Shown here: positions 13,468 through 63,523 of the stretch, piece by piece
How positions within the stretch are numbered: the first letter of the stretch is position 1
Layout of the letters: each line of letters begins with the position of its first letter
NCBI RefSeq assembly: GCF_019649055.1
Contig: NW_026570230.1
Coordinates: forward strand, 372,001-436,000
Length of the DNA: 64,000 nt
Reading direction: 5' to 3'
Source: Paramacrobiotus metropolitanus
Lineage: Eukaryota > Tardigrada > Eutardigrada > Parachela > Macrobiotidae
Notes under the pieces: model-generated
Told to the model about the DNA's origin: nothing
The model's database searches: none
Seen by the model: only the letters and a program-made list of their open reading frames with translations
Made by a program: the position numbers and the translations under genes

Positions 13468-13564
13468 TGTGACGTAGCAACCAGATAGTTGCCACCAATT
13501 GTGGTACGCTGTGTGCGGTCAGAGTGTGTTGGGTCGAGCTGCAGTAAAGTGCTAAGTCGTGACA
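13468..13564 (+). repeat. 3' LTR of gag-only element copy 1
   Basis: It begins TGTGACGTAGCAACC directly after the purine tract and ends GTCGTGACA. Confidence 0.85.
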
Positions 13565-21411: not shown

Positions 21412-21420
21412 CTACGCTTG

Positions 21421-29480: not shown

Positions 29481-29713
29481 CGAGGACAGGCTTAGTATTC
29501 GCGATCACCTAAAAAACTAGCGAGAATTCGCGATCACCTAAAAAACTAGCGAGAATTCGCGATCACCGTGCCCGGGTTGTGCAGAACAGTCAGTCTTCAG
29601 CCAGCCACCAAGGGAAAGCAGTCCAGTGACACTCCACACAGCCATTGGGCTGGACTGCCTTCTCCTGGTGGCTGGCTGGTGACTGACTGTTCTGCACAAC
29701 CTGATCGCTAATT
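29481..29713. mobile_element. MITE related to 47890-48138, right end missing
   Basis: It starts TACGAGGACAGGCTTAGTA after ...aattcta and contains the same long palindrome (gggttgtgcaga...ccagccacca against tggtggctgg...tctgcacaac). It carries a duplicated 31-bp unit (gcgatcacctaaaaaactag) that is single in the other copy. The inverted right terminus seen at 48120-48138 is absent here. Confidence 0.75.
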
Positions 29714-35299: not shown

Positions 35300-36283
35300 T
35301 TATCGAAATCTAACGTAATGGGCGGGATGCTGCAGCTGCGCATCAGCTGAGGCCGCAAAGCATAGAATCGCTCGTAGGCGCTGGGCCGGTGGGTCCGATG
35401 ACGGCGGTGCGGTATCCGTTTGGTACATGGATGCTGATATTCTGGGCCACAGAGCTGACGCTTCGTTCAGGTCTCTTATTGGTGCGGGAAAAGACCAGGC
35501 TCGAATCATCCTCATTCTTCTTTCCAGGTGAGGTCCGCGTTTGGGGCGGGCGCTCCTGAGACGGCCACGATTCTGGTGACCGGTCTGGTCTTGGTTTCGA
35601 TTCTCGATGTAGTAACGTAAGTCATAAGGCTGCCGCGATAGCGGTGCCGGTGGCGCATACTGTTGAGTACGCGTCGGTTCATACTGGCCCTTTAGGGCTT
35701 CCAACAGTCCGCTTTCCATCAGCTGCTTGGCCACTTGGTCGACCATGGTTGTGTTGATGCTGGTCATGATCTGTTCGTACGTCGTTGGAGTTGGCGCCTC
35801 ATACCCGTAGGGCTGAAAGCGTGACGGTGGCTGCTGCTGGTGCGACTGCTGTCCATGAGTTTTCGGGACGGCCGTTGGACCGTGCCCTGTCGACTGATCG
35901 GCACGTGTGTTACCAGGCCGACTATTACGCTCATTATCCCGCTGGATCTTTCGTTCTCGCGCCGTTTGGGTGAGAGGTGGCCACTTGGTTTTGGGACCGC
36001 TCCAGCCAGGTAGTAGGGCGCCAGCGCGTTGCATGTAGAGATCGCAGATTTCGATCTGTTCGTGGTCCCTCAGTAGGGGGAACAAGTGGCGTCCGTCGCG
36101 GCTGTACATGTGACAATAAGCGTCGAAGTTGCCTCTGACCACTTCTTGGTAGAAGCCATACGCTCTTTCGTTTTCGTCACGGAAGCCGGGTCGCAAAAAT
36201 GGTACGTGCAGGGGAACAACTCCCGTTGAGAGTTGTCCCTTAGGCTGGACTGATCCGAACTGTTGTGTTTGCAGTCCCGACAA
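35300..36283 (-). CDS. C-terminal large ORF of the unknown element
   Basis: The 327-residue frame includes HVPFLRPGFRDENERAYGFY, YSRDGRHLFPLLRDHEQIEI and YMQRAGALLPGWSGPKTKWP. Then come a Q/P-rich linker, a helix near TTMVDQVAKQLMESGLLEAL, and an R-rich tail. There is no catalytic motif I recognise. It is the last ORF of the element on this side; the sequence beyond 35299 changes character to AT-rich. Confidence 0.5.
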   Translation of the reverse strand: MSGLQTQQFGSVQPKGQLSTGVVPLHVPFLRPGFRDENERAYGFYQEVVRGNFDAYCHMYSRDGRHLFPLLRDHEQIEICDLYMQRAGALLPGWSGPKTKWPPLTQTARERKIQRDNERNSRPGNTRADQSTGHGPTAVPKTHGQQSHQQQPPSRFQPYGYEAPTPTTYEQIMTSINTTMVDQVAKQLMESGLLEALKGQYEPTRTQQYAPPAPLSRQPYDLRYYIENRNQDQTGHQNRGRLRSARPKRGPHLERRMRMIRAWSFPAPIRDLNEASALWPRISASMYQTDTAPPSSDPPAQRLRAILCFAASADAQLQHPAHYVRFR

Positions 36284-36439
36284 CTTGGGTCATATTTCTG
36301 CTGCGGTGTAACTGCCATTCTCTGTGGTAACTGCAATAAGACATGCAGAACGGTGATGAAGTCCACTTCTAGGACTAGTCCCTATGATAATTACGCCCTT
36401 TGAAATTACGTCCTATAAAATTACAACCCGTCCCCTAGA

Positions 36440-37129
36440 TCACTGATGATATGGCCTCCGCTTTTGCTTCTTCTTGGTGGAGGCCAAAGTGGGGGTGGTG
36501 GTAGGACGAGGGCCATAACGGTCTGGTGGGTCACGCAGCAATCGGTATCGCTGTTGGGCTTCTAGCTCATCAACCGTTTGGCCGAGCCAGCGTTCGTTGA
36601 GCATCTTTTTGACCACATACTGGACGTCCTCGTTGATGCTGAACAAGCCCATGTCGCGGCCCTGGCCGGAGACGTATTCCGTTCCGTCCCTGAGTTGTGG
36701 GTGGTGCGCCAAGCGTTCCAGCTGGTAATGGCCCAGGAGTTGATTGGCTATTTGACCTCTTGTACGGACCATCGGGTGTGATGTTGTGCTGAGCACAGAC
36801 AGAATGGCATTCCGCCATTCCCAGTAGCCTTGAGGTGCCGGTTCACGCCTTTCCGGTGGGAAAGTGTAAAAGATATCGCCGTTTGGCGTATGGGTCCTTA
36901 GAATGGCGCCCTCGTTGTAGGCCATCTGGATGTAGAGCATCACTATCGACTTTGATAACCATTGGCCCTGCCATTTCTCGATGATCTGAAAGGCCAAAGC
37001 TCCTGTGGCGTAGATTGTGCCCGTTTGGGACAACGCCTGTAGGGCGGCCTTAACGTATCCCCATCCTTTGTTCTTATTGAAGACCTTCATCCGTTGGGAG
37101 GGAGCTCCACTTAGATATTTCCTGGCCAC
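36440..37129 (-). CDS. Winged-helix-like ORF of the unknown element
   Basis: This 229-residue frame is the most domain-like of the set. KNKGWGYVKAALQALSQTGT, IIEKWQGQWLSKSIVMLYIQ and MAYNEGAILRTHTPNGDIFY have the helix-helix-strand look of winged-helix DNA-binding domains. A second similar block follows with VRTRGQIANQLLGHYQLERL and DVQYVVKKMLNERWLGQ. The end is basic (KKKQKRRP). It is intact from its first Met to the stop. DNA or RNA binding is an inference from pattern only. Confidence 0.5.
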   Translation of the reverse strand: MARKYLSGAPSQRMKVFNKNKGWGYVKAALQALSQTGTIYATGALAFQIIEKWQGQWLSKSIVMLYIQMAYNEGAILRTHTPNGDIFYTFPPERREPAPQGYWEWRNAILSVLSTTSHPMVRTRGQIANQLLGHYQLERLAHHPQLRDGTEYVSGQGRDMGLFSINEDVQYVVKKMLNERWLGQTVDELEAQQRYRLLRDPPDRYGPRPTTTPTLASTKKKQKRRPYHQ

Positions 37130-37373
37130 TGTTGCATAATCAATGCGCGGCTTCTCCGGGCATGGGTCTGGCAGGGTACGGCTTATCTCGCCATAGCCCG
37201 ATTCTGGGGAAAACGTTTCCCTTACGTTGGCCTAGTCGGGCCGTGCACCACTCTGGTCGCTGTGTTGGGCGCTTTCTGTGCCACCCTGGTCCTCCATGCT
37301 CTGGTCACCGGTGGTGCCTGGTTTTTGTCGCCTGAAGGAATTTCCATGCTGTGGTCCGGTGGGACATTAATGG

Positions 37374-37904
37374 TCAGTTTACCCTTACTTTGGTCACTAT
37401 CATCAGATTCGTCTGAGTCGGACTTTTGGGATTCCTTTTCCTGGTCCTCTTCGTCCTCCTCATCCTCTGGCTCTGAGTCCCCGAATTTCGAGTCTTCAGA
37501 GTCCGAGTCGCTGGTGATGTGGTGGGCGCTGGTGATGTAGTGGGCGATTCATTCCCACGCCCCTTTTTCGCCGTAGCCTTTCGGCTCTTCGTTAAAGTGG
37601 CTAACGGGACCGGTGAAGGAGGTTTGGACTGGCCAGCTGCGTTAGGCAGTGACACAGTGTCCCGTGGCGTGGACCGGGATCCGGTCACGCGCATACGATG
37701 TTTCTCTTCTTTTCGTAGGGCCACCTGCCTTCGAGTAGCTGATGGTCGAGGAGGCTTTTCATGGGGTAAGTTCTTCGGTCCCGGGAGTTTGGCCAGTTGG
37801 GTCATGTCGTATGCTTTTTTGGCCATTCCCGTTAGGGTATCTCCCTTTGGTCGTGCAGCTTTCTTCCTGCCCGCCTCCCATTTCGTGCCTACGTCGTGCG
37901 ACAC
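37374..37904 (-). CDS. Basic, R/S/T/P-rich ORF of the unknown element
   Basis: The low-complexity protein has KKAARPKGDTLTGMAKKAYD near its start, then many RKxx and PTTSPA repeats and an R/K-rich end. It is probably disordered and nucleic-acid binding, or a linker. The opposite strand of this GC-rich stretch is also open, but its composition is less protein-like. Confidence 0.4.
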   Translation of the reverse strand: MSHDVGTKWEAGRKKAARPKGDTLTGMAKKAYDMTQLAKLPGPKNLPHEKPPRPSATRRQVALRKEEKHRMRVTGSRSTPRDTVSLPNAAGQSKPPSPVPLATLTKSRKATAKKGRGNESPTTSPAPTTSPATRTLKTRNSGTQSQRMRRTKRTRKRNPKSPTQTNLMIVTKVRVN

Positions 37905-38056
37905 ATACAGGGACCGTTGGGTCTTCTGTGGATGAATCCGGGGACAGCGAAGCGTATGGGTTCGGCTCGATGGGCATTAGTCGTTTTCAGAACTCCTTGT
38001 TTGACCAGTGCGATCAGTTCTTCCGCCAGGTTAGTTATAAGTTTGTCGAGATCGGC

Positions 38057-38538
38057 TTATCTCTTGAAGTAAAGGGCGTTCACTGTCCTGGCGATGTCCA
38101 GCAGGTTTGAACCTCTTGGGTCATGTAAGTACCCAATGGTTATGCAGATCCGTTGGAAATGCGAGTCGCCACTACGCGAAAGTCCTGCTGGCCGGTGGGC
38201 CACATGGATTCTGCCATCGTCACGGTGTGTGCGGACTAGGAGGCCTAAGTCGAGGATCAGAGTGACCACCCGCCGCATAAAGGGTGCCTTCACGGTCCGT
38301 TAGTGGGAGTCTTCTGAATTCTTCACCGAGCGCCATACGGGCTCGGAGGACACTGACGAGGCACTGGTATAGGTCTCGTCCCGTCTCTCGCTTCATAATC
38401 CTGGTGGCCGCTACCCATTGTCGTACATAATGGCCCGTTGGGATTTCGACGTGGGTGGCCTCTGGTCCAGGGTCTGGAAGTTCAGCTCCATCGTCCCAAG
38501 GTGATGTGAGCATGACTTCCTCTGAGGGTTCTCCCTCG
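38057..38538 (-). pseudogene. Continuation of the interrupted ORF beyond the Polinton
   Basis: The frame below the Polinton carries LTSPWDDGAELPDPGPEATH, GHYVRQWVAATRIMKRETGR and LVSVLRARMALGEEFRRLPL to a stop at 38220. An overlapping frame follows with LLVRTHRDDGRIHVAHRPAG and ICITIGYLHDPRGSNLLDIA to 38057. The helical, arginine-rich composition matches neighbouring ORFs. The overlap indicates a frameshift near 38250. Confidence 0.5.
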
Positions 38539-38544
38539 AGAATC

Positions 38545-38729
38545 AGTAGTATAATGATGGTTATGAACCAGTTTTTTTTATCCGGGGGGTCTAAATTGTT
38601 TGCCCTAGGGGATAATTAACGGTCTGTGTGTTTATAATAAGCGACGTGTTTTTTGACCGGGGTAGATTTTAACGAGTGGAATGTTTTTTAATATGTGATT
38701 TTGTTAAAATATGTCATGAAATTGCAGAC
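38545..38729 (+). repeat. Left terminal inverted repeat of the Polinton
   Basis: It is similar over its whole length to the reverse complement of 46621-46816, with scattered substitutions and a short indel around 38620. Confidence 0.85.
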
Positions 38730-40038
38730 GAAATATCGTTTCGTTACATGGTATTGTAAAAATGACACACTGATTAGTACAATACCGCTTGTTTTTGAGT
38801 GACAGAAACAAAAAAGGAAAAAAGGAAGCTTGATCTGTGGTCGGGTAAGTATGATATCGCGGTAACACACGTTCCGAACGACTACGACCCCTGTTCGACC
38901 TTGGCTTCCCTATTTTTTTCAGTTTTGCGTGTCAATAAGTTGTACTTAACGGTGAAGCATAAAGACTATTTACAACAAGTTGTCAAAGGCATTTTGTAAT
39001 AAGAAATGACCATGGCTTTCAGGGATCATCGGAATCGGTGATCCCTGTAAGATCAGCGTAATATGGATGGATCATCGTTTTCGGTGATCCATACGAGTGC
39101 AGCGGTGATTTACGTACGTACAAGCCCATCCAACAATTCTTTGACCGCTGTAAGCGCAGCGCATATAAATCGCGCACAGTAATGCAAATACGCATCGTAG
39201 TGTAGTGGCAGATATATTTATAAATATTCAACCAACAATAATATATTAGATCACAATTAATCACCGATAAAGCATCATCACAGCTAAAATTATCAGGTTA
39301 ATCAACAAAACCAAACAGATCGCAGTTAGAATTATCATAGTTAAATTACCAGTAACTACAAAAAAAACAGATCAGTTTATGAACTACCATTCATGAAACG
39401 AAATATGGAACGAAATATCAGTACTCAATTCGAGCGCCACCTGCGTGGAATACCTTCTCATATCGCACTGGAGTAGATTTGTAAAGATTCTGGCAGATTT
39501 GTTGCTTATTTACGTTGAATACGCAGACTCATGTGGCGTGATGTGTCGAAGCACATTAAATGGCTCAAGCCCACGTTTCTTTAAATTCCCGCTTACAGCG
39601 GTCAAAGAATTGTTGGATGGGCTTGTACAACACCGTAGCAACAGTACTGTTTTAAGTAATCTTTGGATAAATAGATGTGGTTATTTTTGCCACGTATTTG
39701 ATCTGAACGGGTAATGAGCATAATGGAGGTTTTATTTCATTGCTGAAATTGCTGTCAAATCAATAAAATGTCGCATCATTGTCTGTGGCGCAACCGTCAG
39801 GAACGAACAGTTTCGTTCCGCAAAGTTGTTGCAGCTTGTTGTTTTTTCGTATGTGGGTCGATTCAAAAGTGTGACCGGGGTTGATGGTTTAAAGACACAC
39901 CCAATCTTACACAGCTCTATGAAATTCGACCGTTGCATTTTTGCTGTAATAAAAATGATGACCTAAGTTTCCGGTAAAGTTTTCAATTAGTCAGAACCAC
40001 GTATTTATCACCATCGTTCAACGAAATGCTGTAAAGTC
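38730..40038. other. Polinton left interior without a recognised gene
   Basis: Two small hairpins (gggatcatcg...cggtgatccc near 39022 and ggatcatcg...cggtgatcc near 39066) and a 42-bp inverted repeat (acaagcccatccaacaattc at 39119, its complement ending at 39630) suggest further small insertions. The short frames at 38799-38999 and 39445-39714 look weakly protein-like but are unassigned. Confidence 0.45.
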
Positions 40039-40251
40039 TTACCTAACATTTGAAAGGATATATTGTTCGATTATTCGGTTTCGTACGGTGTTGTTCCAGT
40101 AGTCGGTCTGCATAATTTTTCCAACGCTTTTGGTGACAACAAACGCAGCAAAAACTAAGAAAAACACAACGTACAGGATAATTAACAACACCTTCTCACA
40201 TTTTTGCTCGAGGTTACGCGCATAGCACAACATGTGCTGGAGGTTAGCCAT
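40039..40251 (-). CDS. Small single-span membrane protein, hypothetical
   Basis: It has an ATG start (ANLQHMLCYARNLEQKCEKV), one clear membrane segment (LLIILYVVFFLVFAAFVV), and a polar tail. Polintons often carry small unassigned membrane ORFs, but this one is antisense to the other genes and may be a chance frame. Confidence 0.3.
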   Translation of the reverse strand: MANLQHMLCYARNLEQKCEKVLLIILYVVFFLVFAAFVVTKSVGKIMQTDYWNNTVRNRIIEQYILSNVR

Positions 40252-40449
40252 TGTAAATTGTAAATTAATATTGAAGCATTAGCATCCCTCAAATAGACTA
40301 GCGTAGTTTATTTTCCTCGAATAAATTACGTCTTTTAATCGCTTTATAAATTGTTTTGCAACACTGGTCACTGAAACAATACCTGTTTTTGGCTAAAAGT
40401 TATTTAAAAATTTCCGTTTGTAACAAAGCCTATTTAAGCGGAACATATT

Positions 40450-40775
40450 GGCCCGCGCTCAAGCTCTGACTCTGACTCAGACTCTGACCGCTCAAACTCT
40501 GACTCTGACTACTCAAAGTCTGACTCTGACTGTCCAAGCTCTGACTCTGACTTTGACTGAATAACCTAAGAATAACTTAAGAAACCTAAGAAATTTAATA
40601 AAACAAAGAATAACCTAAGAATAACCTAAGAAACCTATTAAGAAACCTAAGAAACCTTCAGAGTCAGAGTCAGACTTTGAGCGGTCAGAGTCAGACTTTG
40701 AGCGGTCAGGGTCAGACTTTGAGTAGTCAGAGTCAGAGTTTGAGTGGTCAGAATCAGAGTCAGAGTCAGAGTTGG
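40450..40775. repeat. Inverted GACTCTGAC / CCTAAGAAA repeat
   Basis: The left arm (40450-40557) is built of ctctgactctgac words and the right arm (40664-40775) of the complementary gtcagagtcagag. A short CCTAAGAA spacer lies between them, so the whole could fold back. The start ggcccgcgctcaagctctga is shared with 45523 and (inverted) 22500, linking this repeat to the 1750-bp TIR element family. Confidence 0.75.
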
Positions 40776-40809
40776 ATTCTGGGCCGAACATATTTGGTGC
40801 ACAAACACT

Positions 40810-41514
40810 ATGTGTCTGCTAAAAATGTTTAGCGGGATAAATGATTATCCGCGCTTTCGCGCTCCGTTTGGAATGTGTATTTGTGGGCCCACAATGTCGG
40901 GCAAAACACATTTTGTATTTACGCTCCTAAGAAACAGTAACTTTGTTCTAAATCAACAACCAACGAGGATATTATACTGTTGCGGCCACTGGCAGAAAGG
41001 TATCGAAACCTTACAAGAACAGGTTACTCCAGTTGAATTCCTGCAGGGTCTGGACGATCTGTTCTCAGTTTTGCAGTCAGTTGACAGTAAGACTCATACC
41101 TTGGTTATTATTGACGATTTGGCTACTGATCTATGCAAGGATGCGCGCTGTTCTGACCTGTTTATCCGTGGAATCCATCACAAGAACGTTTCCGTCATCA
41201 TGCTGCTGCAAAATCTGTAAAAACAAGGAAAATCGATGCCTGATATCACACTCAATTCGCAGCACTTGATACTATTTAAGAACGTCCGGGATGTCAATCA
41301 AATCGCATTGCTGGCACGTCAAACTGGACTAAAATATTTGGTCGACGCTTATGACAAAGTTACATCGGAACCTTATCAACCCTTGGTTTTGGACTTGCGC
41401 CCAACGTGCCCCGATTATTTAAGGATACGATCACATGTTTTACCGGGTGAACGAATACGGATTTATCTGAACCGGAACTCAACAAACACTTTACCAAAAT
41501 GTCGGAAAGGGTAA
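40810..41514 (+). pseudogene. Polinton packaging ATPase (A32/HerA-FtsK type) with internal stop
   Basis: The Walker A motif GPTMSGKTHF lies about 25 residues from the probable start (ATG at 40810 or 40825; the earlier open codons are GACTCTGAC repeat). The Walker B motif is TLVIIDDLATD. One in-frame TAA (41218-41220) interrupts the otherwise continuous frame, which resumes with ITLNSQHLILFKNVRD and ends at 41514. In Polintons and related double-jelly-roll viruses this enzyme pumps DNA into the capsid. The single nonsense codon inactivates this copy. Confidence 0.85.
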
Positions 41515-41825
41515 AGGCCTTAGCGCCCTTCATCATCACGCTGCAGCACTTGAAGCCAAAGCAGCGAAAAGTCCTTATGAGCTACCTAATCAAATCGCAA
41601 CTGAAAGCTCTGGAAGAAGTGGCTGTCAATATTGTGAAAAATATGGTTAATTTATCGCCCGCCGAAGCAGATAAATGCAAACGGTATCGGAAAGCATTAA
41701 AGCTGATTGCCTTACGGCGATACCCCTTGAAAGAAAAACGCAAACTGATTCAGCAAGGAGGATTTATTGGAGCCATCTTACCAGTCATTGCCGGTGTTCT
41801 AACTTCTCTTGTCGGAAATGGATGA
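41499..41825 (+). CDS. Polinton small conserved protein with C-terminal hydrophobic GGF motif
   Basis: The 108-residue frame is intact. It starts SERVKALAPFIITLQHLKPK and continues with a basic helical region, then KKRKLIQQGGFIGAILPVI and a hydrophobic end. A protein of this form occurs in many Polintons and adintovirus-like elements, where a GGFLGALLP-like end is typical; a minor virion role is often suggested but not certain. It overlaps the end of the ATPase frame by 16 nt and the next gene by 8 nt, a compact virus-like arrangement. Confidence 0.7.
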   Translation: MSERVKALAPFIITLQHLKPKQRKVLMSYLIKSQLKALEEVAVNIVKNMVNLSPAEADKCKRYRKALKLIALRRYPLKEKRKLIQQGGFIGAILPVIAGVLTSLVGNG

Positions 41826-42662
41826 ATACTTTATCGTTTCATGGAGAGTAATGGAAAGCCGGCTCCATGAGCAGCTTCAGATCAACAGAGAACCTCCGAA
41901 AGCACATAGTGTTCTATCGCTGGACGCTCTCGTAATTCAAACGCTCCAACGTACCGATATAAGCGAGTACGGAAAGCTAGCCAGCTGAGCAGTATCCTGG
42001 AACGGTTCCTTGCCTTGAAACAGAAAGCCATTCCTGATGAAAATCTCTTAGTACTATCTACAAAAGTAGCCACACAGCCGCTACCAATAGCTGCGGAAAG
42101 GAATCCGGCATTCCCTCCATATTCCCGACTGCCACCGCAATCCATGGTTGTTGAAACGCAAGAGTCACAACAACCCGCTTCCCAAAAACGAAAGAAACCA
42201 GATGACTTTGAGGAAACTGTACCTACCAAACAAGCTCGACAACCTTTATTCCCATCCGCTTTCCCTACTAAAGGACAGAAGCGCGTCTACGAAAGCGATC
42301 CTGACGACAGTAACAAATCAAAAGCCGCACGCACTGCTTTGTTTCCGGCATCGCTACCGAAGAAAAGTTCCAAACGTCAGCAGGACGAATCGCGACCAAC
42401 AAAAGCAGCACGCATAGCGTTGTTTCCCCCGACCGCACCGAAGAAGGGTCGAAAGCGACTGAACGAAGGCATAGACAACCAAGGGTCTTCACGTAAGCGA
42501 CCTCGTAGACCTTTGTTCCCCGTCACAATTCCCCTGCGTGGAAAAAAAAGAAAGGCGGACCAGATTGAAGGTAGTGTTAGAAAACTGCGGTCACATACCA
42601 TCCAAACAGGAGCGGGCCAATCCAGAATACAGTGGATCACTCTAACGTATTGGCTGGTCTAA
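41818..42662 (+). pseudogene. Polinton basic protein with four ALFP repeats
   Basis: ATG at 41818 overlaps the preceding stop. The first frame ends at a TGA after about 56 codons, and a neighbouring frame (open from about 41985) continues to 42662, which indicates one small indel. The C-terminal half contains four copies of a ~33-residue unit with an ALFP-like core: QPLFPSAFPTKGQKR, TALFPASLPKKSSKR, IALFPPTAPKKGRKR and RPLFPVTIPLRGKKR. Each unit joins a proline-rich turn to a basic cluster. The last residues run into integrase sequence in another frame. The role is unknown; DNA binding or a nuclear-localisation array is possible. Confidence 0.6.
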
Positions 42663-43493
42663 TCCAACCAATGAAGTCCAAAACGGCCAACGAAACCAAG
42701 AATGCTTTGTCGCGGGCTTTTAAAGAACTCGGCGAGCGGGAAAAGCTGCAGTATGATAAAGGCACCGAATTTTTTAACGCCGCGGTGAAAACCTTGAAAG
42801 AGAGAAAGATTCACTTTTTCACATCGAAAAACGAAGACATCAAAATCAAATGTGCCATGGCCGAACGTGTCATTCGCACCATCAAAACACGAATGTTTCG
42901 CTTGTTTTGTGCGCGAGTTTCGACCCGGTACATTGACAAACTGCAAGATCTGGTGTACTAGTATAACCACTCTAAACATCGAGCACATGGATTGCGACCA
43001 ATAGACGTCACTCAGAACAATTCTTTGGCGGTATTCAACAAATTGTATCCAACCAAGGAAACCCAGCAACCTCGATTCAAGGTCGGTAATGCAGTCCGGA
43101 TAGCTGCATAAAACCAAGGTGGAAAAAGGCTATACGTATCGAATTAAGGAGGAACTGTTCTACATCACTAAAGTCATTTCACATACCGTACCGGTATACC
43201 GACTAAAGGACTACCAAGACCAACCTATCCAAGGAACCTTTTATGAACACGAGCTCTCCAAAGTATCGCGCCCGAAACAGAAAGAATATACCATCGACCA
43301 TATCATTAGACGCCGTGGTGATAGAGTACCAGTTTGCTGGTTAGGTTACGGACCTGAGCACGATTCCTGGATAAAAGCATCATCATGTACGAAGGAGCAC
43401 CATTCTACGTGGCGCTCTCGAGCGATGTGGCGACGGACCCCAGCAACACCCCTTCCAATTGGACGACCAAACTGGAATATCCCATTACACTAA
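42632..43493 (+). pseudogene. Polinton integrase, N-terminus deleted, with chromodomain
   Basis: The frame starts abruptly in the core (MKSKTANETKNALSRAF), has LQYDKGTEFFNAAV and then AMAERVIRTIKTRMFR, which carry the second Asp and the Glu of the DDE triad. It stops at 42961 and continues past that stop with YNHSKHRAHGLRPIDVT. After a second stop and a frame change (43119) comes LKDYQDQPIQGTFYEHEL and a chromodomain (EYTIDHIIRRRGDRVPVCWL, ending DSWI). The zinc-binding N-terminus and first catalytic Asp are absent, so it cannot be active. Confidence 0.85.
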
Positions 43494-44350
43494 AGGGAAA
43501 ATGGGAAATGGCCCTTGTCGAACTACAGTACCTCAATTCCTTTTACACTCTTCCCGTCGAGCAGAAGATTGAAGTGCACATCGTTAAAGAATTCAGACTA
43601 AAGAAAGATGAAGGAAACTTTCTGGAATCTGCGGACCAAGTTGTCCATACCGACGAGATTACCATTCCTCCTGGAAATTGCAAGGATGCGGATTTGTTAT
43701 TAAAAACCATCAATTTATTGGTACCAAAAGTTGGATCGTACATGGTGGACGAAACTGTGCAAGCTGATAAGAGCGCCTTGTCTGCCGACAGAGCCTTTAC
43801 CGTTCAGTTGCTGACCGCCACCAATCATCGAGTTCGACTGAATATTGGTAACGATCGGGTTTCTGTTGTCTTTCCTCCGTCGTCGATAGTCCTACAAAAA
43901 AATGCTGGGATTTGAACACAGCGTACTGAAACCTGATGTGCCGATGGAAAGTAACAGCAATGTATTCATCGGTCTTTTCCTATGGAAACCAAGAACGTCA
44001 GTATCCAGTACCTGTCCTTTCTGGCTAAACCTCCGAATCCAAAGCTGAACGGCTTTATTTCGGAGCGACCGGTCAACACCCTACTGGGAAATCAAAGCCT
44101 GTTTGTCTACAGTGACGTGGCCGACTACCGCTTGATTGGGGATACCGCAGCGCAGTTTTTACGTTTTCACGCAGGAGAAGTCAGTCAAATTGTGGAGGCC
44201 AGATTCGACATTCCCCACTACGTCCCTGTATTACGACAACATTTCGAAACCATAAAGCTGACCATTGCCAACGATCTGGGAGACGACGCCAAGTTCCAAA
44301 CGGGAAAGTCCCTTGTGAAACTGCATTTCCGACTACAACGACTATACTAA
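43385..44350 (+). pseudogene. Polinton minor capsid (penton-like) protein, two frame changes
   Basis: The ATG at 43385 opens APFYVALSSDVATDPSNTPS, TKLEYPITLKGKWEMALVEL and QYLNSFYTL, the pattern of the single-jelly-roll minor capsid proteins of Polintons. The frame is lost at an A-run near 43900 and regained by 43982, ending with NQSLFVYSDVADYRLIGD, RFDIPHYVPVLRQHFETIKL and KSLVKLHFRLQ, the conserved C-terminal part. The middle section (43905-43990) can be read in a neighbouring frame, so two small indels explain the break. Confidence 0.8.
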
Positions 44351-44351
44351 A

Positions 44352-44750
44352 ATGCCTCTGGTGGAGTACGTGCCGGATCCCCGGCGATACGAGAACGTCT
44401 TTTTGATTTAGACCGGTGGTAGCGCACTGATTCGGTACCGAGGCACGCTGCAAAACGGGTCTGGCTTCCCATAGATTTTGAAAAATCTGTTTGCTAAGCT
44501 ATCAGGATTTGTTCAACCAATATTACGGAAAGCCGCACCCCATGCCAAAGCTGCTCTGGAATCGGCTACGCCTCACCTGCAAGAAGCTGCTACCGGGGCT
44601 ATTAAAGAGGCAGCCGCACGTGCCGGAACAGCCATAGAAAAACGTTTTGCTTCCCAGGAAGGAGAAGGTGTTCGAAAGAAACGACGAGTTCAACGCAGAG
44701 TTGTTCGAGTGAAACGTATTCCACCTACCAACATCCCCGATTTCTTCTAA
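44352..44750 (+). pseudogene. Polinton pVI-like membrane-active/minor capsid protein
   Basis: The start region (MPLVEYVPDPRRYENV) has internal stops, after which 44478-44750 is open: LFAKLSGFVQPILRKAAPHA, then helical A/K-rich sequence (AALESATPHLQEAATGAIKE), a basic cluster and an IPDFF end. Polintons encode a similar short protein with a glycine-rich start, amphipathic helix and basic tail, compared to adenoviral pVI/pX. The N-terminus is damaged here. Confidence 0.65.
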
Positions 44751-44752
44751 AA

Positions 44753-45136
44753 ATGGCCATGTTGATGATGGAAAATTCTGAGCCGGCCATGCAATTGGAG
44801 AACCAGCTCTTTGCATTACCGGCCGCCTTAACGGATCGCTGGCGCACGGAACACGAAAAGCTGAACCCCACTACCGTTTTGACAGACAACGGATCCGCCT
44901 GCGACATTATCTTTTTCATTCAGCCCAGCACATCCGGACTACTTAGTTTGGCGGATATGATCCTGGAACTTGAAGTAGGTATTAAAGTCCACAAAGCCAC
45001 CGGTGAATGGGAACTGATTACAACGGCTGATGGTGTGGCACCGGTCAACAACATTCTGCACTCCCTGTTCTCTTCATGCCATGTGACGGTAGCCAACCGG
45101 TTGATCTCGGATGCCGCCACGTTTTATCCGTACAGC
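44753..45136 (+). pseudogene. Polinton major capsid protein, N-terminal fragment
   Basis: The frame begins two bases after the preceding stop and reads to PVNNILHSLFSSCHVTVANR and a YPYS motif, the conserved start of the double-jelly-roll hexon-like protein (VNN.LHSLFS...V and YPY are typical). Only about 128 codons remain of a protein usually several hundred residues long. The cut coincides with agcacacacatg, the point where the TIR element copy starts. Confidence 0.85.
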
Positions 45137-46613
45137 ACACACATGTCTTAAAATTTTTGAATTTCTTACATTTTTTATGTTTTCTTAGGTTTTGTAACGT
45201 GTTTTTGTATTTTTTTTATGTTTTATTAAGTTTTATGTTTTTTTTGTGTGTTTGATTTTCCGTGCATGTACTCTGGAGCACGGTCGGTCAGTTTTCTGTA
45301 CTTTTTAACTTTAAACGGTCTGCTTCTTGGTTTTTTTGTTTTATTTGGTTTTCTCAAACGGAAAAGCAAACTGTAGTTCGACAAAACAGTTTTTCGAACA
45401 CATCGGGCAACAAAATTGTGGAAACGCCAATTGTCGGTCAGTATTCTGTCGGTCTGCCGGTTGGGTTATTCATTGATATGTCGTTGTACGAAAAGTCGAG
45501 AGGCGAAACAGAAACAAATGGCCCGCGCTCAAGCTCTGATTCTGACAACTCAAACTCTGGCCCTCAAAGTCTGGCTCTGAACGCAACACTCGAACCACTA
45601 AAACTGACCATAAATAAAATAGGTTCTCAGGTTTCTTCGGTTTACATTGTGTTTCTAATGTTGTTAAGTTTCTTAGGTTGTTAGGTTATCCTTAAGTTGT
45701 TAGGTCATTCGTAGGTATCCTAGGTTTACAATAAACTTCTTAGGTTCTTCGGTTGTATTGTAATTCTAGGTTATGCCAATATCAGATGGCGCTGGCTAAG
45801 CGCGCATCGTCCAACGACGGAGGAACAAAACAAACCCGGATGTAGGCTTTAATGCCGAAATCTGAACACACCGCGCTTTGCGCGCAAGCCAAGAACCAAC
45901 TGGTCTCTGTAGGCAGCGCAGCTGCCTTACAGAGCCATCAAAACGCATGAAAATGCCCAGACAGGAAAAAACCCAAAACCAACCAATGAGAGAAGGGCTG
46001 AATCATAAGCCCGCCCTGACACCAATGTGACTATGGTCACTTGCGTTATTTAAATTTTCTTAAGATTTCAAAAATTGTGGCAATAAGAAAAATAACCCAA
46101 GCTAAGAAAACTAAGAAACGTAAGAATAACCTAAAAAACCTAAGAAGCCTAAGAATGACCTAAGAAAACTAAAAGACCTAAGAATAACCTAAGAAACTTA
46201 AGAATAACTAAAAAATCTGAGAACCTAAGATAACCTAAGAATAACGCAAGAAACCTACGAAATTTTAAGAAACTTTTGTGCTACATAAATATTTAGCGCT
46301 CATTGCATTGGTAGGCGAGTATAGGGCGTTGGCTGTTCGCAGAGTAGAAAAAGATTATTTAACAGAAATGTGATGAACTGTTTCTTTCACATAATTATAT
46401 CTTTAGTGTAATGGCCATTTATGAAATTTAAAACTACGCATAGAAGTCGATTCCGTTTTAACTGTCACTTTTCTTGGTGGCAGGCAAATTTAAGTTATTT
46501 CTGCACTTTGAAAAATTGCCATGTTTTAACGCTTGCCAGTCGCGAAATGCCACATGCCACTGCCGGTGGCAACTGCCAGTGGCAGGTGCCACTTCCGCCT
46601 TTTACACCCTGCC
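45133..46613. mobile_element. TIR element, copy 2 (inverted, one end missing)
   Basis: It matches 21421-22896 in reverse complement over about 1.48 kb with few differences and ends in the same ccttttacaccctgcc terminus at 46613. The opposite terminus (the last ~270 bp in copy 1) is absent. The sequence switches directly to the Polinton capsid gene at the shared word agcacacacatg. No target duplication is present, which suggests a deletion or recombination joined the pieces. Confidence 0.85.
45262..45684 (+). CDS. Conserved ORF of the TIR element, copy 2
   Basis: It encodes the same polar protein as 22350-22706 with about 22 extra N-terminal residues and very few substitutions. See that entry for composition. 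No homology is recognised. Confidence 0.35.
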   Translation: MHVLWSTVGQFSVLFNFKRSASWFFCFIWFSQTEKQTVVRQNSFSNTSGNKIVETPIVGQYSVGLPVGLFIDMSLYEKSRGETETNGPRSSSDSDNSNSGPQSLALNATLEPLKLTINKIGSQVSSVYIVFLMLLSFLGC

Positions 46614-46620
46614 TACTTAG

Positions 46621-46816
46621 TTTGCAATTTCATGACGTATTTTACCAAAATCACATATTAAAAAACATTCCACTCGTTAAAATTTACCCCGGTCAAAAAA
46701 CACGTCGTCAATTACCCCCTATGGCAGCTACACACAGACCGTTAATTATCCCCTAGGGCAAACAATTTTGACCCCCCGGATAAATAAAACTGGTCAATTA
46801 TAGCCAGGATACTACT
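46621..46816 (-). repeat. Right terminal inverted repeat of the Polinton
   Basis: It ends atactact at 46816 and is followed by GGAATC. It retains segments with cccccggataaataaaactgg and the complement of the left repeat. Confidence 0.85.
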
Positions 46817-47466
46817 GGAATCGGTTCGAATTCCTCGTCTCGCCATGATAGTGGTTGTGATGGCCCTGGTTTGTCCGGGCTGTCCGATAGGACCTGGACG
46901 TCCTCATCGCCTGACAGCCGCTTCCCGAGCTGGGCGATCTTGGCTTCGCGACTCTTCTTGTCCTGGGCCTCTTGTTTCTTCTGGCGGTTTCGTTCGGCCT
47001 TTGGGTTCAGTGCGGTCCGCGGTATTTCCGCCTGGCTTCCACTCGGTTGAGGGGAGGATGGACGAGAGGCCTGTCTTGCCCTCTCTGGCTTCTTGGCTTT
47101 TCTCGGCTGTGTAACCAGGTATGAGTTAGCAGAATGGATCACCGATGCGCCAAACGCCAGATCTTCCAATGTACCTGATATGCGGAAACTCACTGGTTGG
47201 CCAAAGGGTATGTCGTCCACTTTGGTTGGGATAGTCGTTAAGGCTGTTGGAAGGGCAGCCGTTGAACCCGTTTCTGGCTGATTCTGGTCAGCTGGTGCTT
47301 TTGGTGGCGGAGTTGCCCTCGATGGTCCCGCCTGTTTTGGCTCTACTTGTGACGTCGCCACAACTGGCCCTGGCGGAGATGTGTCCATCGGTTCTGGTAC
47401 TGGAGGCGCTTGCGTCTGTGGCGGCACCACTGTTGGTGCCAATAATGACAACGGTTCGGTCATCAT
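46817..47466 (-). pseudogene. P/T-rich basic ORF of the unknown element, cut by the Polinton
   Basis: The frame runs MMTEPLSLLAPTVVPPQTQA, a proline/threonine-rich stretch, a folded-looking part (IPFGQPVSFRISGTLEDLAF, VIHSANSYLVTQPRK), a lysine/arginine-rich helix (NPKAERNRQKKQEAQDKKSR), then an acidic end. The last codons before the stop at 46798 come from the Polinton terminus; the host frame ends at 46817 and resumes at 38538 in the same phase. Confidence 0.55.
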
Positions 47467-47509
47467 TGGTCCTTCTCCGGTGAGGGGAACAGGCGCCGAC
47501 GCCTTCTGT

Positions 47510-49078
47510 TCAAGTAATCTTCCACCATCTGAGCACCAATTGACGAAAGATTTCGGTGATCATTTCGTTATCTTCCGGCTTGTTCAGGTCCTTAGCCTCT
47601 TGTCTCTTTCTGAAGAGGTAAGGATATTGCCGTCTGTCATTATGGTCAGCGTGGGCCAGAAGGTGCCTCTTCTCCGTTGGAGTCGAGGCACTCATGGGCA
47701 TCAGGGCCTCACTGGCTTCCGCACGCTGAGTCGGAAGTTCAATGACCATTTGGGCTAATTCTGGAACCAAAGGTGCTGATGCGGTAACGGTAACTTGTAC
47801 TTCCTGGACCGTGGGGTCCGCGGCCACCGTTGGTGGCGGGATTCGTTCCTCGGTTATGGTTAATGAATGGTTGTTGAGAGGATGAAGTACGAGGAGAGGC
47901 TTAGTATTCGTGATCACCTAAAAAACTAGCGAGAATTCGCGATCACCGTGCCCGGGTTGTGCAGATCAGTCACTTACCAGCCAGCCACCAGGGGAAGGCA
48001 GTCCAGTGACACTCCACACAGCCATTGGACTTGATTGCCTTCCCTTGGTGGCTGGGTGGCGACGGGCTGTTCTGCACAACCCGGGCACGGTGATCGCGCT
48101 AGTTTTTCAAGTGATCACGAATACTAAGCTTGTCCTCGTATCCATCTTCTCTTTGGCTGGTGATTTGCCTGACCGGCTCGGTGTGAACCTGGCTGGTGGT
48201 GGTCCTGGGGTAGGCATACTTGGCAGGCGCGCCAGAGTTGATGTGGCGCGACCAGGAGAAGTCCTTTTTTCCGGAGACCGACTTTGGCGGGGTGATCCCT
48301 TCATTAGAGGGGATTTGCTCCTTGCGGTCTCATATAGGACTCTTTGAAGGTCTTTGTCCAAGTCGGACTCTTCTTCGCTGTACAGGACGCCATAAAAAGC
48401 CCGCTGGTAGGTTAGGACGTTTGTCCTCATTTTCAACCTCCTCCGGTGGGAGTTGGTCTTCCAATGGTTGGCGTGGTCGTGGTTCAACTGTCCAGGTTCT
48501 TGGGTTGATATGTAGCCCGCGTATGTAGATCGCATGTGCAATGATTTCGCCAGGCAGTGGGCGCTCGCGAAGGGCCTGGCTATTGTTTCTTATAGCCATC
48601 AGTCTTTGGATGAGCAGGTTCCGCTCCTGGACCAATAGCTGACACCCTCGGTTGAAGCGGTCAACTTCGTAGTCGGTTAAGGTCGGATCGCCGGCGCGTA
48701 GTCGCTGACGCATGTCCTCCTCAATTAAGTTTAAGCGTAGATCAACTTCTAGGATCTCGCTGACCAATTCGTCATGCGGGTCTTGCTGCGTTGGACCCGT
48801 ATGGGCCAACTGAATACGATGCCTCGTTGGAGGCTCGTCCCGCAATGGCTGGAATGTCCCTGATGGGAGTGGTCGTGTTTGCGGTGGTGAAAGCACATGT
48901 CCTTTTCCAGGGATTTCTTGGGTGGTGACTTCTTTTTGGCCGGTAGGCCCCAAAGCACCAAAGTTGGCTGGTCGGTCGAAGGTTTAAGTTTATGTGGTCC
49001 GGGCCTGGTTGGGCCAGGAAGTTCTAAGTCCAATGGTTGTCCTCTCCAAGCAGGGAGTGACTGTTGTGAAGGAGGCTA
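47510..49078 (-). pseudogene. Middle ORFs of the unknown element, with MITE insertion
   Basis: From the high end the frames give PPSQQSLPAWRGQP...GLPAKKKSPPKK (to 48749), a helical block DELVSEILEVDLRLNLIEED with LLVQERNLLIQRLMAIRNNS and a IAHAIYIRGLHINPRTW motif (48953-48330). Next is a short RS/P-rich block (48541-48141), and after the MITE a P/T-rich block ending EIFRQLVLRWW (47917-47510). At least three frame changes occur. The helical block resembles a structural or gag-like domain only in a general way. Confidence 0.5.
47890..48138. mobile_element. 249-bp palindromic MITE with TA target
   Basis: Inverted ends CGAGGA(g)AGGCTTAGTATTCG surround a long palindrome whose arms contain ctagcgagaattcgcgatca, ccgtgcccgggttgtgcaga and ccagccacca. 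TA flanks both ends (47888-47889 and 48139-48140). It lies inside the minus-strand unknown element. A partial copy is at 29481. Confidence 0.85.
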
Positions 49079-50776
49079 CTGCAGCTCGACCCAACACACA
49101 CTGATGGTCCCACACTGATGACCATACGCTAGCAACATGGTTGCTATACTACGCCACATCTCCCCCCAGTGGGGAACCCACTCACAAAAAAATAGAAAAT
49201 ACTTGCAGAATCGACATTAATAACATTAAAAAAAAGAATATTCACGAATATGAATGGTTTTCGGTTCCTCCACTGGCAAGTCCAAGGTAGTGCTTATTTC
49301 CGTTTCTTGCGCTTCGCTTTCTTACGCTTCCCAATCACCTCCGAAGTGATTTCCGGCTCGGCCTCGGCGTCCGCAACAGCAACTATCGCCTCGCACTGGC
49401 TTTGACTTGGTCGTGCACTACAGCTGATTCCGTCCCCGTACGCCGTACCGCTATTTCTCCGTTCTTCGGTTCCGTCCGCCATGCGCCCGTAGGCGGTTGT
49501 GTCACTCACAAACAACACTTCTGCCTGATCCATCTGGGAACCTTCGTTTGCGGAATTTCTGCCATCCCGCTGCTCCAGCGCACGGCACCGTTCCACTAGT
49601 TCATTCAGCTGCCTGCTTACGGTATCTAACACGCACCACACAGAGTCCAGCGAGTCGTCTGTGCTCTCCGGGGCGATGTTGATGCCCATGACATCAAACT
49701 CTTCGTTGATGAGCATTGTTCGCCTCCCGCCTTGGTGCTGTTCCCGCTCTTTAGGCTCAGAGCGGCACATCCTAGCAATGTAGCCTCGTTTGCCACAGTT
49801 GCCACACCGGACATCTTTCGCCCAGCAGTCCGCCTTTCTGTGGTCCACATCGCCACAGGAATAACACCCTGCGCCTCCCCGCGCAGTCGACCATTGTCAG
49901 CAGAATTGCTGCCGCGTTCGTCCGGGCTGCTCCCTTCATCTCGCCCACCGCCTCTCCTGCGGCTTCCGCCTGTGCCGTCGCTTCTTCCCTCAGCTCGGCC
50001 TAGTTGACCTTGACTGCGACCTTGGCCACGCCCTTCTGCTTTCGTGCGCACGATGGCTACGTCAGCCACTTCCGTGGACGCCTGGCCTCGCTTGGTGGTC
50101 TTGGCCAGCTCGTATTGGTTGTCTTGGCCATCTCCAGGGCTTTTTCAAGCGTCGTGAAATCCTTGGTCATGAGGTGCTGACGCGTGGCATCGCTGGCCAC
50201 ACCGTTCAGGAATGTCGACGACATGTTCTTTTCCAGCACGTCCGCTGGGAACCCGCAGCTGATGGCCTTTCGGCGCAGCTTGTTGGAAAACTCCAACAAT
50301 GTATCCCCGGCCTCCTGACGCAACTGGAAATACATCGCCCACTCTACTGTCGCGTTGGTCTTCCGGACCTATGCCTGCTCCAGTTTGTCCACAATCTGAG
50401 CACTGGTGTAATCGTCCGGGTCACGCGGCAGGTACGCCCAAGGCGTCCAGCAGGATGGCCTTCTGTTCGTCAGTGTCCGTGACCTTCCTTAACTTAATGT
50501 AGTTGCGGTATCGAAACTGCCATGACCTCCACGTCATGACCGCAGGTTCAAACCGCAGAAGACCAGATCCACCATTCTCCTCACGGGGCGCTGCGGAAGC
50601 CGTAGAAGCAGTCACATTACCCGTACTGGGCATTTCTACTACGCGGAGTATCACACTAGTCGTACCTTCACGCCACTGTCACGTCTTAGTACTTTACTGC
50701 CGCTCGACCCAACACACACTGATGGTCTCACACTGATGACCATACGCTAGCAACATGGTTGCTATACTACGCCACA
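49079..50776 (-). mobile_element. Gag-only LTR retrotransposon, copy 2 (inverted)
   Basis: It is the same element as 11830-13564, on the minus strand. The 5' LTR is 50677-50776 (TGTGGCGTAG...GACGTGACA) and the 3' LTR 49079-49158, which lacks its last ~20 bp. Both LTRs share a catcagtgtg duplication not seen in copy 1, so the copies represent subfamilies. It is inserted in the unknown element between ORFs of that element. Confidence 0.85.
49294..50654 (-). pseudogene. gag: gag polyprotein of copy 2
   Basis: Blocks correspond one for one to copy 1: LRFEPAVMTWRSWQFRYRNY and KVTDTDEQKAILLDALGV (50654-50421), a TAG, QLRQEAGDTLLEFSNKLRRK (50335-50057), the RG-rich linker (50069 down), and knuckles CYSCGDVDHRKADC and CGNCGKRGYIARMC. 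The lysine/arginine-rich end closes at 49294. The change of frame after the capsid part and before the knuckles is the same as in copy 1. A small deletion near DALGV distinguishes it. Confidence 0.75.
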
Positions 50777-51564
50777 CTCCTCCGGTTCTGGGGAGTCCTC
50801 CTCCTTTTTCTGAATCTGGGCGACTCTGGGCCACCAGTTGTGGCTGGTGTGGCCATTCTTTCTGTGACGGGCTTATCTCTGGTCGATATCCTAGCCGTTT
50901 ACCGGACGATGTGCCTCTGATGTATCGCCTTCAATTTGTCTTGGCGTGTCGTGGTCTGCGATGATGCGGTGGGCTCATCCACGACCATAGGACTTGTCGG
51001 TGCACCAGTCGGTTGGGCTGGTGCCGACTAAAGTTGGGCCGGCTTCTCCGGCGCAAGCTCAAGGGTTTTGTCGAGCAAGCTCACTTCCATTTCGATATCC
51101 TGCGGTGGAGTCTCCGTTCTGTTGTCCGCGGTGGCGGGTCCGACAGTATCCGCAGGTTGACTTGATGTTGGCGCAGGAACGCTTGGTGCTGAGGCCACTG
51201 TTGGTACTGGGACCAAAGTTGGGTCCACTGGTACTGAGGCGACCGGTGCATGCATGGTGGCTGGCGCCGTTGCCGTTGCCACTGAGTCTGGTCGCCGTTC
51301 GTTAACTAGATCAAAGTCACCGGGGCGTTCTGCCGTTAAAGGGCCGGGTCGGTGGACCTTAAAGTAATTTTCGATAAATTCTAAAAGCCATTTGTGGGTG
51401 TAGTCTAGAACATTTAGCGATTCGCCGGTAGGCATCGTACTATTCTGGGTAAGTTTCTTGAGTAGAGCTATCCGATGGAATAATCTCTGCTGCTGTTGGG
51501 TCAGCCGGGCCACTTCTGGGTCAAAAGGGCTGAGCCCGCTGAAGTCCCGTGTGCGGTTGGGCAT
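50777..51564 (-). pseudogene. Helical/P-T-rich ORF of the unknown element, 3' part cut by an LTR element
   Basis: The frame begins PNRTRDFSGLSPFDPEVARL and then LTQQQQRLFHRIALLKKLTQ, LDYTHKWLLEFIENYFKVHR, followed by a long P/T/A-rich tail. It meets a TAG at 51028-51030. Past that stop the same frame reads on with similar composition (QPTGAPTSPMVVDEPTASSQ), through one more stop, up to the inserted LTR element at 50776. The helical part is unlike anything I can name. Confidence 0.5.
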
Positions 51565-51720
51565 ACGACGATCAATATCCTCGGCGTCTCTGGTCAGGTT
51601 GCCGATTCTCAGCGCTTGAGGGATCGTTATTTGGGTGGTGCCAGTGTCCGCTCGCGTAACCTTTTGCGCAGGGCTTTTTGCTCATCTTTCCGCTGTCGGC
51701 GAAGAGTACGACGGCCTGGT

Positions 51721-52062
51721 TTAACAGTTTCTGCCAGCTGTATAAAGTTCGGTCTGCAGTTTGCGGATTACCAGTGCCCCGGCTCTGAGTTGGAGAAAGG
51801 CTGGGACATCTTCGTCATCACTGGACTCTTCAGACGACTGGTTGTCGGAGTTAGTGTCTGGTGAGTCGCTTGAGCTTTGGACGTCCGAATCGGTGGACTC
51901 GGGTTTGTCGTCCTGCTCTACGGTTGGCTCGCCGTTGGCCTCGGTAGAGGCTGGCGCGTCTTCGGTCACCGTAGGTGCCGGTTCGGTCATGGGATCCGCT
52001 TCTCGGTTCCCTGGCGTTCCGGTCGCGATTTTCTGATTCTTAGGTTCGTCCGGTTCAGCCAA
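51721..52062 (-). CDS. Acidic, low-complexity ORF of the unknown element
   Basis: The frame runs from MAEPDEPKNQKIATGTPGNR through a strongly acidic serine/aspartate tract (SSSDSPDTNSDNQSSEESSD) to LQLRAGALVIRKLQTELYTA and stops. The composition suggests a disordered linker of a larger polyprotein. No enzyme motif is visible. Confidence 0.45.
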   Translation of the reverse strand: MAEPDEPKNQKIATGTPGNREADPMTEPAPTVTEDAPASTEANGEPTVEQDDKPESTDSDVQSSSDSPDTNSDNQSSEESSDDEDVPAFLQLRAGALVIRKLQTELYTAGRNC

Positions 52063-52755
52063 AGCGGTTAGACGGTCCTCGTTAGGGAGTGGTGAGGCTG
52101 GTCGGCCTCCTGTCCACCGTTGGGCGGCACGGGTCTATATGGCCGGTATTACCGCTTCAACGTCGTCTCCACACAGAGGACATTTCAGTTGGACAGCCTC
52201 TGGTGAAGGGTCCTGCGTTTGGTTGCTGGTATCCCTCCTTTGATCTCCCTGTTCTGATGTGGACCATCATTGAAGCGCACTCCTGTCGCTATGTGCGGTG
52301 CTACTTCAAGCAATGATTCCGGTATGGTCCTGACGTTAAGCAGGTCCTGGTCATACCTTGTCCATATGGTGGTGGTTGCACCAGGATTTTTGGCCATAAA
52401 TCGTTTCAATTGAATTGTGGCGTCGAAGAGGTCTGAGCACATTTTGTTTAGTCGTCGAGGGATTTTCATATGGTACTCTTTGTATTCCCACCACAGGGCT
52501 ACCCGTTCGTCTTCCCAGAGTATTCCTTCCTCTTCGAGTTTTTCTTCCTCTTCGAGTTCTTCTATGGTCTCCACAAATGTTACAGATTTTGCGTCCAGCT
52601 TGCCAGTCTGCTGGTTCACCTACCACTTTTTGGTAAGTCTGTTCAATGGCCAGTTGGTCAGCACGGTATAAGAGGAAATTTCTGACCCCCGTTAACCATA
52701 TCTTGTATTGCTGGACCAGTTGCTCCTTAATTTCTTCATTGGGCACTGGGCGTTG

Positions 52756-52775
52756 TGCCTCTGGTATCGGGATAG
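52756..52775 (-). repeat. 20-bp motif CTATCCCGATACCAGAGGCA, site 1
   Basis: One of four perfect copies. It lies in coding sequence for IPIPEA in the minus-strand element, 207 bp from site 2. Confidence 0.9.
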
Positions 52776-52962
52776 TCTTTACTATCCCGTGAGTTAGCTT
52801 GAGCATGCCAGCGCGGAATTAGGTAACGTGCCGTTCAATGGCGTTATGGACGCGCGGTTTCAAGATGAAGCCTTCAATGGTATCCAGGAATTCCGAATAG
52901 GTAGAAGCTTATGTGGTCGGGTGATCAATCCGATTTATCGTTACTTCATTGTCGGATCCCGG

Positions 52963-52982
52963 TGCCTCTGGTATCGGGATAG
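52963..52982 (-). repeat. 20-bp motif, site 2
   Basis: A perfect copy, again coding IPIPEA. The base after the motif (C on the minus strand) is also shared with site 1. Confidence 0.9.
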
Positions 52983-53200
52983 ACTTTACCGCGTCCCAAA
53001 CGATTTCTTTGTTTGGCTTCGAGATGAAGGTAAACTTGGAGTGGAGGTAGTCGCACCAAAGTAGGACTTGCACGTTCGTAGTCGTCGGTTGGACGAAGGA
53101 CGTGTAATGATAGGTGATCATTCTGGCGCCCGGCGCACCACCCCTCGGGTACGCACAGGGCGCTGCTTAATATAGAGGGGGGCGATACTGCCCTAGCCAC

Positions 53201-63293: not shown

Positions 63294-63313
63294 CTATCCC
63301 GATACCAGAGGCA
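63294..63313 (+). repeat. 20-bp motif, site 3
   Basis: A perfect copy of CTATCCCGATACCAGAGGCA, coding IPIPEA. Confidence 0.9.
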
Positions 63314-63503
63314 TTGGGCACGGCAGCAAATGAGGCCCGGATAAATCGGCTTGATCACCCGATAAACCCCGGACCCCCGATGCCCTCAGTGCTCGGACAC
63401 GGAACGAAGCCTCGTAACGGAGCTGCATATCAATAACGCCATCGAATAATACTTGGCGAAAGTACGGACGACCCGACTGGAACCAGCCCGAGGGTATTTA
63501 AGT

Positions 63504-63523
63504 CTATCCCGATACCAGAGGCA
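63504..63523 (+). repeat. 20-bp motif, site 4
   Basis: A perfect copy, 210 bp from site 3. It is followed directly by a partial inverted copy (cctctggtata, 63528-63538), so site 4 can form a hairpin. Confidence 0.9.

Follow-up and report, generated by a model that had tools for sequence, protein, structure and literature searches.

The locus and its outer element

The stretch analysed here, called the window below, covers 64,000 nt of contig NW_026570230.1 of the tardigrade Paramacrobiotus metropolitanus (positions 372001-436000; genome label C10). Its minus strand carries separated open reading frames (ORFs) that an initial annotation, made from the letters of the window, had assigned to one undescribed multi-ORF element at 35300-53200. 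We searched the genome (169.8 Mb, 533 contigs) and aligned relatives of this outer element in C168, C68, C21, C110, C6 and C3 to the window by blastn and tblastn. The outer element very probably represents a dead member, with internal deletions, of a family of giant Ty3/gypsy long terminal repeat (LTR) retrotransposons that is present in multiple copies and in which the separated ORFs are parts of a giant ORF that lies behind pol. Its limits had to be revised, as the 3′ end was found at 35122 and the other end is cut off inside the protease at ~53115. The features of the outer element and of the insertions that it contains are listed in Table 1.

Table 1. Features of the outer element and of the insertions within it, in window coordinates.
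Feature	Positions	Strand	Basis
Outer element, decayed copy, very probably of a giant Ty3/gypsy LTR retrotransposon	35122..~53115	-	blastn/tblastn to relatives; LTR edge
3′ LTR remnant, ~162 bp of its 5′ part gone	35122..35387	-	blastn to L023/L025 LTR, ~80-84%
Filler insert in 3′ LTR remnant, roughly 45 bp	~35180-35225		by eye
Deletion junction, five shared bases (GGGCC)	35383..35387	.	~3.2-3.7 kb of element gone, jump into 3′ LTR
ORF4, N-terminal part (ORF after giant ORF)	35383..36289	-	tblastn of C21 ORF4, 54%
Giant ORF, C-terminal conserved domain	36443..37231	-	at least 152 genome matches; alignment A2
Giant ORF, middle part, downstream of Polinton	37377..38538	-	tblastn 66-69%; relatives' alignment A3
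Polinton with one target copy, 8.3 kb	38539..46816	+	terminal inverted repeats (TIRs), ATPase, putative integrase fragment
Nested non-autonomous DNA transposon in Polinton	39118..39628	.	39-bp perfect TIRs, TA target duplication (by eye)
Palindromic, microsatellite-rich insertion in Polinton	40450..40782	.	inverted repeat
One-end-truncated copy of 21420-23171 TIR element, in Polinton	45134..46613	.	98.9% over 1,481 bp to 21421-22895
Giant ORF, segment upstream of Polinton	46817..47559	-	tblastn 56%
Miniature inverted-repeat transposable element (MITE) with inverted arms, in giant ORF	47888..48140	.	inverted repeats; length vs C68
Giant ORF, segment containing the 48330-48953 protein	48138..49057	-	tblastn 48-70%; at least 150 genome matches
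Gag-only LTR element	49076..50776	-	absent from 6/6 homologues
Giant ORF, segment	50777..51743	-	blastn 69-75%
Deletion junction, ~7 kb gone	51743..51774	.	C68, C168 coordinates; C21 tblastn
Protease end and protease-to-RT (reverse transcriptase) linker region of pol	51774..53115	-	tblastn, C168 885-aa and C3 protease ORFs

Both deletions in the window copy (51743/51774 and 35383/35387) had escaped the initial annotation. The first of them took out reverse transcriptase (RT), ribonuclease H (RNase H) and integrase together with some 830 residues at the start of the giant ORF, of which the N-terminal third is gone. The window copy itself thus falls short of an autonomous gene set, and it was because of the loss of RT, RNase H, integrase and this N-terminal third that it looked undescribed. 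When ten ORFs of the outer element in the window were compared to Pfam, only matches below the cut-off were obtained (best CDC27, E 0.0036), and an Rfam scan of the window gave nothing at gathering scores. The description as an undescribed multi-ORF element was only partly right: several ORFs do belong to one element, but by the domains found in its relatives the family is very probably of the known Ty3/gypsy kind. Within the filler of the 3′ LTR remnant, 30 bp are a copy (97%) of 34916-34945, which lies ~275 bp away and just outside the outer element, and this arrangement resembles templated break repair.

Linkage of the ORFs and anatomy of the family

The tblastn searches proposed in the initial annotation showed that the two proteins used as markers are both high-copy. 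The protein at 36440-37129 (left marker) has at least 152 matches in the genome (150 of 281 candidates scored), and the one at 48330-48953 (right marker) at least 150 (150 of 211 candidates scored). Linkage was counted with 146 left-marker matches and the first 59 right-marker matches. Of the 59 right-hand copies, which are the closest ones, 54 have the left-hand protein downstream, on the same strand and within 30 kb, and a right marker was present for 40 of the 48 best left markers. The distance between the markers is typically ~2.9 kb; the pair in the window, 11.2 kb apart, shows the largest distance. In addition, the ORFs that are separated in the window form one open frame in C21 (2,559 aa), C23 (2,559 aa) and C110 (2,540 aa). 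The proposal that the outer ORFs are one unit was thus borne out by uninterrupted homologues in a single frame and by the linkage of the closest copies; homologues in which the two groups are never linked were not the outcome.

One family member, C168:46316-71100, could be spanned from LTR to LTR, the only one of its family. It is 24.8 kb long with an internal region of ~24 kb, and its LTR pair, examined in this one copy, is 390 bp long with one mismatch, has the ends TGTCAG..CTGACA and is flanked by a target site duplication (TSD) of 4 bp, GTAG. Directly behind the 5′ LTR lies a primer-site-like stretch starting with TGG. The genes follow in the order Gag-like ORF, RT, RNase H, integrase, giant ORF and ORF4. 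Pfam recognised RT, RNase H and the zinc (H2C2) and core (rve) domains of the integrase in C168 pol, and in the C3 element an aspartyl protease upstream of RT-RNase H-H2C2-rve. For the first ORF of C168 (1,425 aa), the name Gag-like is based on where it lies and on a single zinc-knuckle-like pattern, not on Pfam.

Among solved structures, Ty3 is the closest relative of the C3 RT (6e-81). Among the protein relatives of pol (best 120 of 3,177), the closest three come from the same host and are followed by RT-integrase proteins that are 29-47% identical. Furthermore, the integrase tail stands directly upstream of the giant ORF in all seven further elements examined (L009, L015, L013, L012, L018, L022 and L020); L026, which was also examined for this tail, is the pol of the C3 element and is not among the seven. 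The LTRs, the pol domains and the layout of gag, giant ORF and ORF4 therefore point to a giant Ty3/gypsy-type LTR retrotransposon.

Several observations weigh against this reading. In C168, the sole LTR-to-LTR copy, pol and the giant ORF are split between frames, and a protease match, as seen in the sister element C3, was not found in the C168 ORFs scanned; this copy is therefore complete in extent, but not intact. Membership in the Ty3/gypsy clade is suggested by domains and best matches rather than by an RT tree. The left marker is absent for five of the 59 right markers, and the right marker for eight of the 48 best left markers. Neither the giant ORF nor ORF4 has a Pfam domain above the cut-off in the copies scanned, the nearest match of the giant ORF being RIN1 in C3 (E 8e-4, 20.1 bits vs a cut-off of 27). 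No solved relative was found either, as the profiles A1, A2 and A3 gave a single match to solved structures, at E = 0.18, which we take as chance. Models of the C-terminal domain were poor, with a predicted local distance difference test (pLDDT) score of 39.8 for the window sequence alone and 48.5 with two relatives. Both models show a helix-helix-helix-strand-strand pattern, which may hint at a winged helix without amounting to evidence for one.

On the plus strand, 60761-64000 contains a portion of another giant gypsy element, which is related to the outer one and runs off the window end. Its pieces are gag, a zinc-knuckle region and the protease-to-RT linker.

The giant ORF and ORF4

Among the matches listed, 11 copies have a giant ORF that is open over 2,531-3,227 aa (frames of at least 2,500 aa being counted). 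The ratio of nonsynonymous to synonymous substitution rates (dN/dS; Nei-Gojobori, without significance test) was 0.21-0.23 in all three full-ORF pairs (2,530-2,554 codons), and it ranged from 0.08 to 0.37 across ten consecutive 250-codon blocks when C21 was compared to C110. The low ratio along all blocks indicates that the whole giant ORF has been kept as a protein under purifying selection. Moreover, the middle and C-terminal domains of the giant ORF and ORF4 are common to two subfamilies that are ~33% identical. A homologue search with giant-ORF region 1830-2559 gave none at E ≤ 0.001, and profile A2 matched two proteins, both from Paramacrobiotus metropolitanus (7,996 candidates scored).

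The products of the giant ORF and ORF4 are most likely intracellular proteins with an accessory or structural role and not an envelope, and that of the giant ORF is possibly a polyprotein cut by the element's own protease. More tentatively, the two proteins may form a post-pol module of a kind undescribed in other retroelements, which would be neither an envelope nor a captured gene but an accessory system, acting for instance as a large component of the particle or as a factor that targets chromatin.

In retroviruses env follows pol, which is the place that the giant ORF occupies. It could accordingly be an envelope gene, and the family a lineage of endogenous retrovirus-like elements (errantiviruses) that can leave the cell; the sequence MGQTQS in the Gag-like frame of C168 would fit a myristoylation signal. 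However, hydropathy revealed no likely membrane-spanning stretch, as the two giant ORFs computed have top 19-residue Kyte-Doolittle means of 1.25 and 1.49 and the two ORF4s have top means of 1.11 and 1.23, and an envelope is therefore improbable. The composition (cysteine 0.2-1.2%; 42% P/S/T/E/Q in the C21 giant ORF) argues against it as well, and a Pfam env match was not found. Less credible still is a reading of the giant ORF as a host gene, or as part of an unrelated element, that adjoins pol copies by chance. In the searches with region 1830-2559 and profile A2, no homologue was found outside this host, which would suit such a reading, but the position of the giant ORF between integrase and 3′ LTR in C168 contradicts such a chance neighbourhood, as do its place behind the integrase tail in the seven other elements, the purifying selection between copies and its presence in both subfamilies.

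Comparison with known giant retrotransposons

In size, the nearest known system is Burro of planarians, a giant gypsy-like element of >20 kb with a 4,873-aa ORF1 that starts with Gag and bears further named domains, among them BIR, ankyrin and MATH_TRAF_C (PMC6431247). Like Burro, the tardigrade family is gypsy-like, exceeds 20 kb, has an ORF of several thousand residues and is present in many copies in an animal host. However, the tardigrade giant ORF is separate and comes after the integrase, whereas that of Burro begins with Gag and reaches pol, and C168 has short LTRs of 390 bp. BIR, ankyrin, MATH_TRAF_C and BCL2-like domains gave no Pfam match in the tardigrade giant ORFs, ORF4s and Gag-like ORFs scanned. 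Ogre of dicot plants is likewise a giant Ty3/gypsy element with extra ORFs, but its size comes largely from its LTRs, which measure 1.9-6.5 kb and enclose an internal region of 11-13 kb (PMC6431247), compared to ~24 kb for the internal region of the tardigrade element. A curation of tardigrade transposable elements lists elements of the Gypsy and Maverick types from two other species, and Paramacrobiotus was not found in the available portion of its text (PMC11071193). We found no description of the giant-ORF family in the open-access literature searched, a scope outside which subscription papers and Repbase lie.

The length limit of retrotransposons has traditionally been put at ~10 kb (PMC6431247). 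Beside planarian Burro, the family adds an animal LTR retrotransposon near 25 kb, and this in a small genome of 170 Mb. Its excess coding capacity sits in a separate giant ORF behind pol that is kept intact by selection, and the function of such giant accessory proteins could be tested in this family with tractable means. For annotation, the family accounts for several ORFs that had gone unrecognised, and internally deleted copies can pass for novel elements. The nesting at this locus is nothing unusual; what deserves interest is the giant ORF behind pol.

The Polinton and its empty site

The TIRs of the Polinton (38544-38735 and 46614-46817; 204 bp, 84%) start at 38544/38545 and 46816/46817, and the flanking 6-mers, AGAATC and GGAATC, are identical at five of six positions. 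A packaging ATPase of the Pox_A32 type was found at 40744-41220 (30.4 bits vs a cut-off of 22.8) and a putative integrase fragment at 42632-42961 (rve, 18.7 bits, short of the 32.6-bit cut-off); an ORF at 43119 is chromodomain-like by eye. The TIRs, the 6-bp target duplication (5/6) and the A32-type ATPase agree with Polinton/Maverick elements (PMC6431247), and the putative integrase fragment would do so too. In contrast to these, the inserted element is only 8.3 kb long and PolB was not seen in the eight ORFs scanned; it is a decayed copy, interrupted by three repeats.

The initial annotation had stated that leaving out the Polinton and one 6-bp target copy restores an open frame in phase across 46817/38538. 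Blastn alignments of the window ran unbroken across the Polinton, at 38527/46823 in C21 and at 38542/46817 in C110 and C6. With gapped scoring, the join 46817/38538 was best in five of six homologues, clearly so in C110, C6 and C68 and by only two points in C23 and C168, while 38536 was best in C21. With ungapped scoring, 38541, which lies in the same phase and 3 nt from 38538, was best in all six. This preference arises because the window lacks one codon (3 nt) ~10 nt downstream of the junction, as read from the alignments to C110, C6 and C21. The breakpoint 38541 was rejected since the gapped alignments show this one-codon gap and then favour 38538. We take the predicted empty site as confirmed, in phase. 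The ungapped joins and the narrow (C23, C168) or absent (C21) gapped support would suit the idea that the left and right ORF groups are different elements whose junction is in phase by chance, but the gapped joins that favour 38538 in five of six homologues, the linkage of 54 of 59 marker pairs and above all the uninterrupted single ORFs across both groups, which already refute it, leave this idea with practically no probability.

Other insertions and nesting order

The homologues also confirm the site of the gag-only LTR element. The join 50777/49075 was best in five of six and tied with 49076 in C6; blastn in C21 (49057/50777) left ~80 bp unaligned, which was resolved by closer alignment. 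The element has a 5′ LTR at 50677-50776 (100 bp) and a 3′ LTR at 49077-49158 (82 bp, end missing), and it carries gag-like and zinc-knuckle ORFs by eye. An LTR of 79 bp with a 4-bp TSD was considered but rejected. In another copy, L030, the two ends match 97 and 95 of the 100 bp, which favours a 100-bp LTR whose 3′ copy has been shortened. Around the MITE, the distance from 47746 to 48138 is 392 bp in the window vs 86 bp in C68. The view that the Polinton, the gag-only element and the MITE split the outer ORFs thus holds, with confirmed sites for the first two and a shorter C68 at the third.

As had been noticed, the Polinton contains further repeats, and three were found. Those at 39118-39628 and 40450-40782 are both absent from the three related Polintons compared, which supports the proposed order of outer element, Polinton and then the TIR element inside it; the third (45134-46613) rests on copy identity, not on an empty site. 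The 39118-39628 element has at least 142 matches in the genome, arms and fragments included, with full-length copies up to 98% identical (40 of 93 candidates scored). A four-layer nesting was not recovered, as the deepest chain (outer element, Polinton, repeat) has three levels, and the nesting does not tell in which order the three insertions into the outer element (Polinton, gag-only element and MITE) arrived.

From the anatomy observed, working members of the family would have started their RNA in the 5′ LTR. Their own RT would have copied this RNA from the primer site next to the LTR, and their own integrase would have inserted the copy with a 4-bp target duplication. After the insertion of the outer copy, the Polinton, the gag-only LTR element and the MITE entered it, and the three smaller repeats inserted into the Polinton. 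At some point, deletions removed RT, RNase H and integrase from the outer copy.

Relatives of the inserted elements were seen elsewhere. The genome is rich in Polintons, with at least 150 matches to Polinton-type ATPases in 170 Mb (150 of 348 candidates scored), a few of which are pairs of pieces from a single copy. Another gag-only LTR element, at 11830-13564 of the window, is 91% identical to the nested one and has LTRs that are 99% identical over 96 bp. A relative of the MITE at 29523-29701 (90% identical) has a perfect tandem repeat of 29 bp beside it. With arms of 122 bp (93%), the TIR element at 21420-23171 looks recently active, its truncated copy in the Polinton being 98.9% identical, and at 23592-23977 the window contains two tandem copies of a 193-bp unit that are 97% identical.

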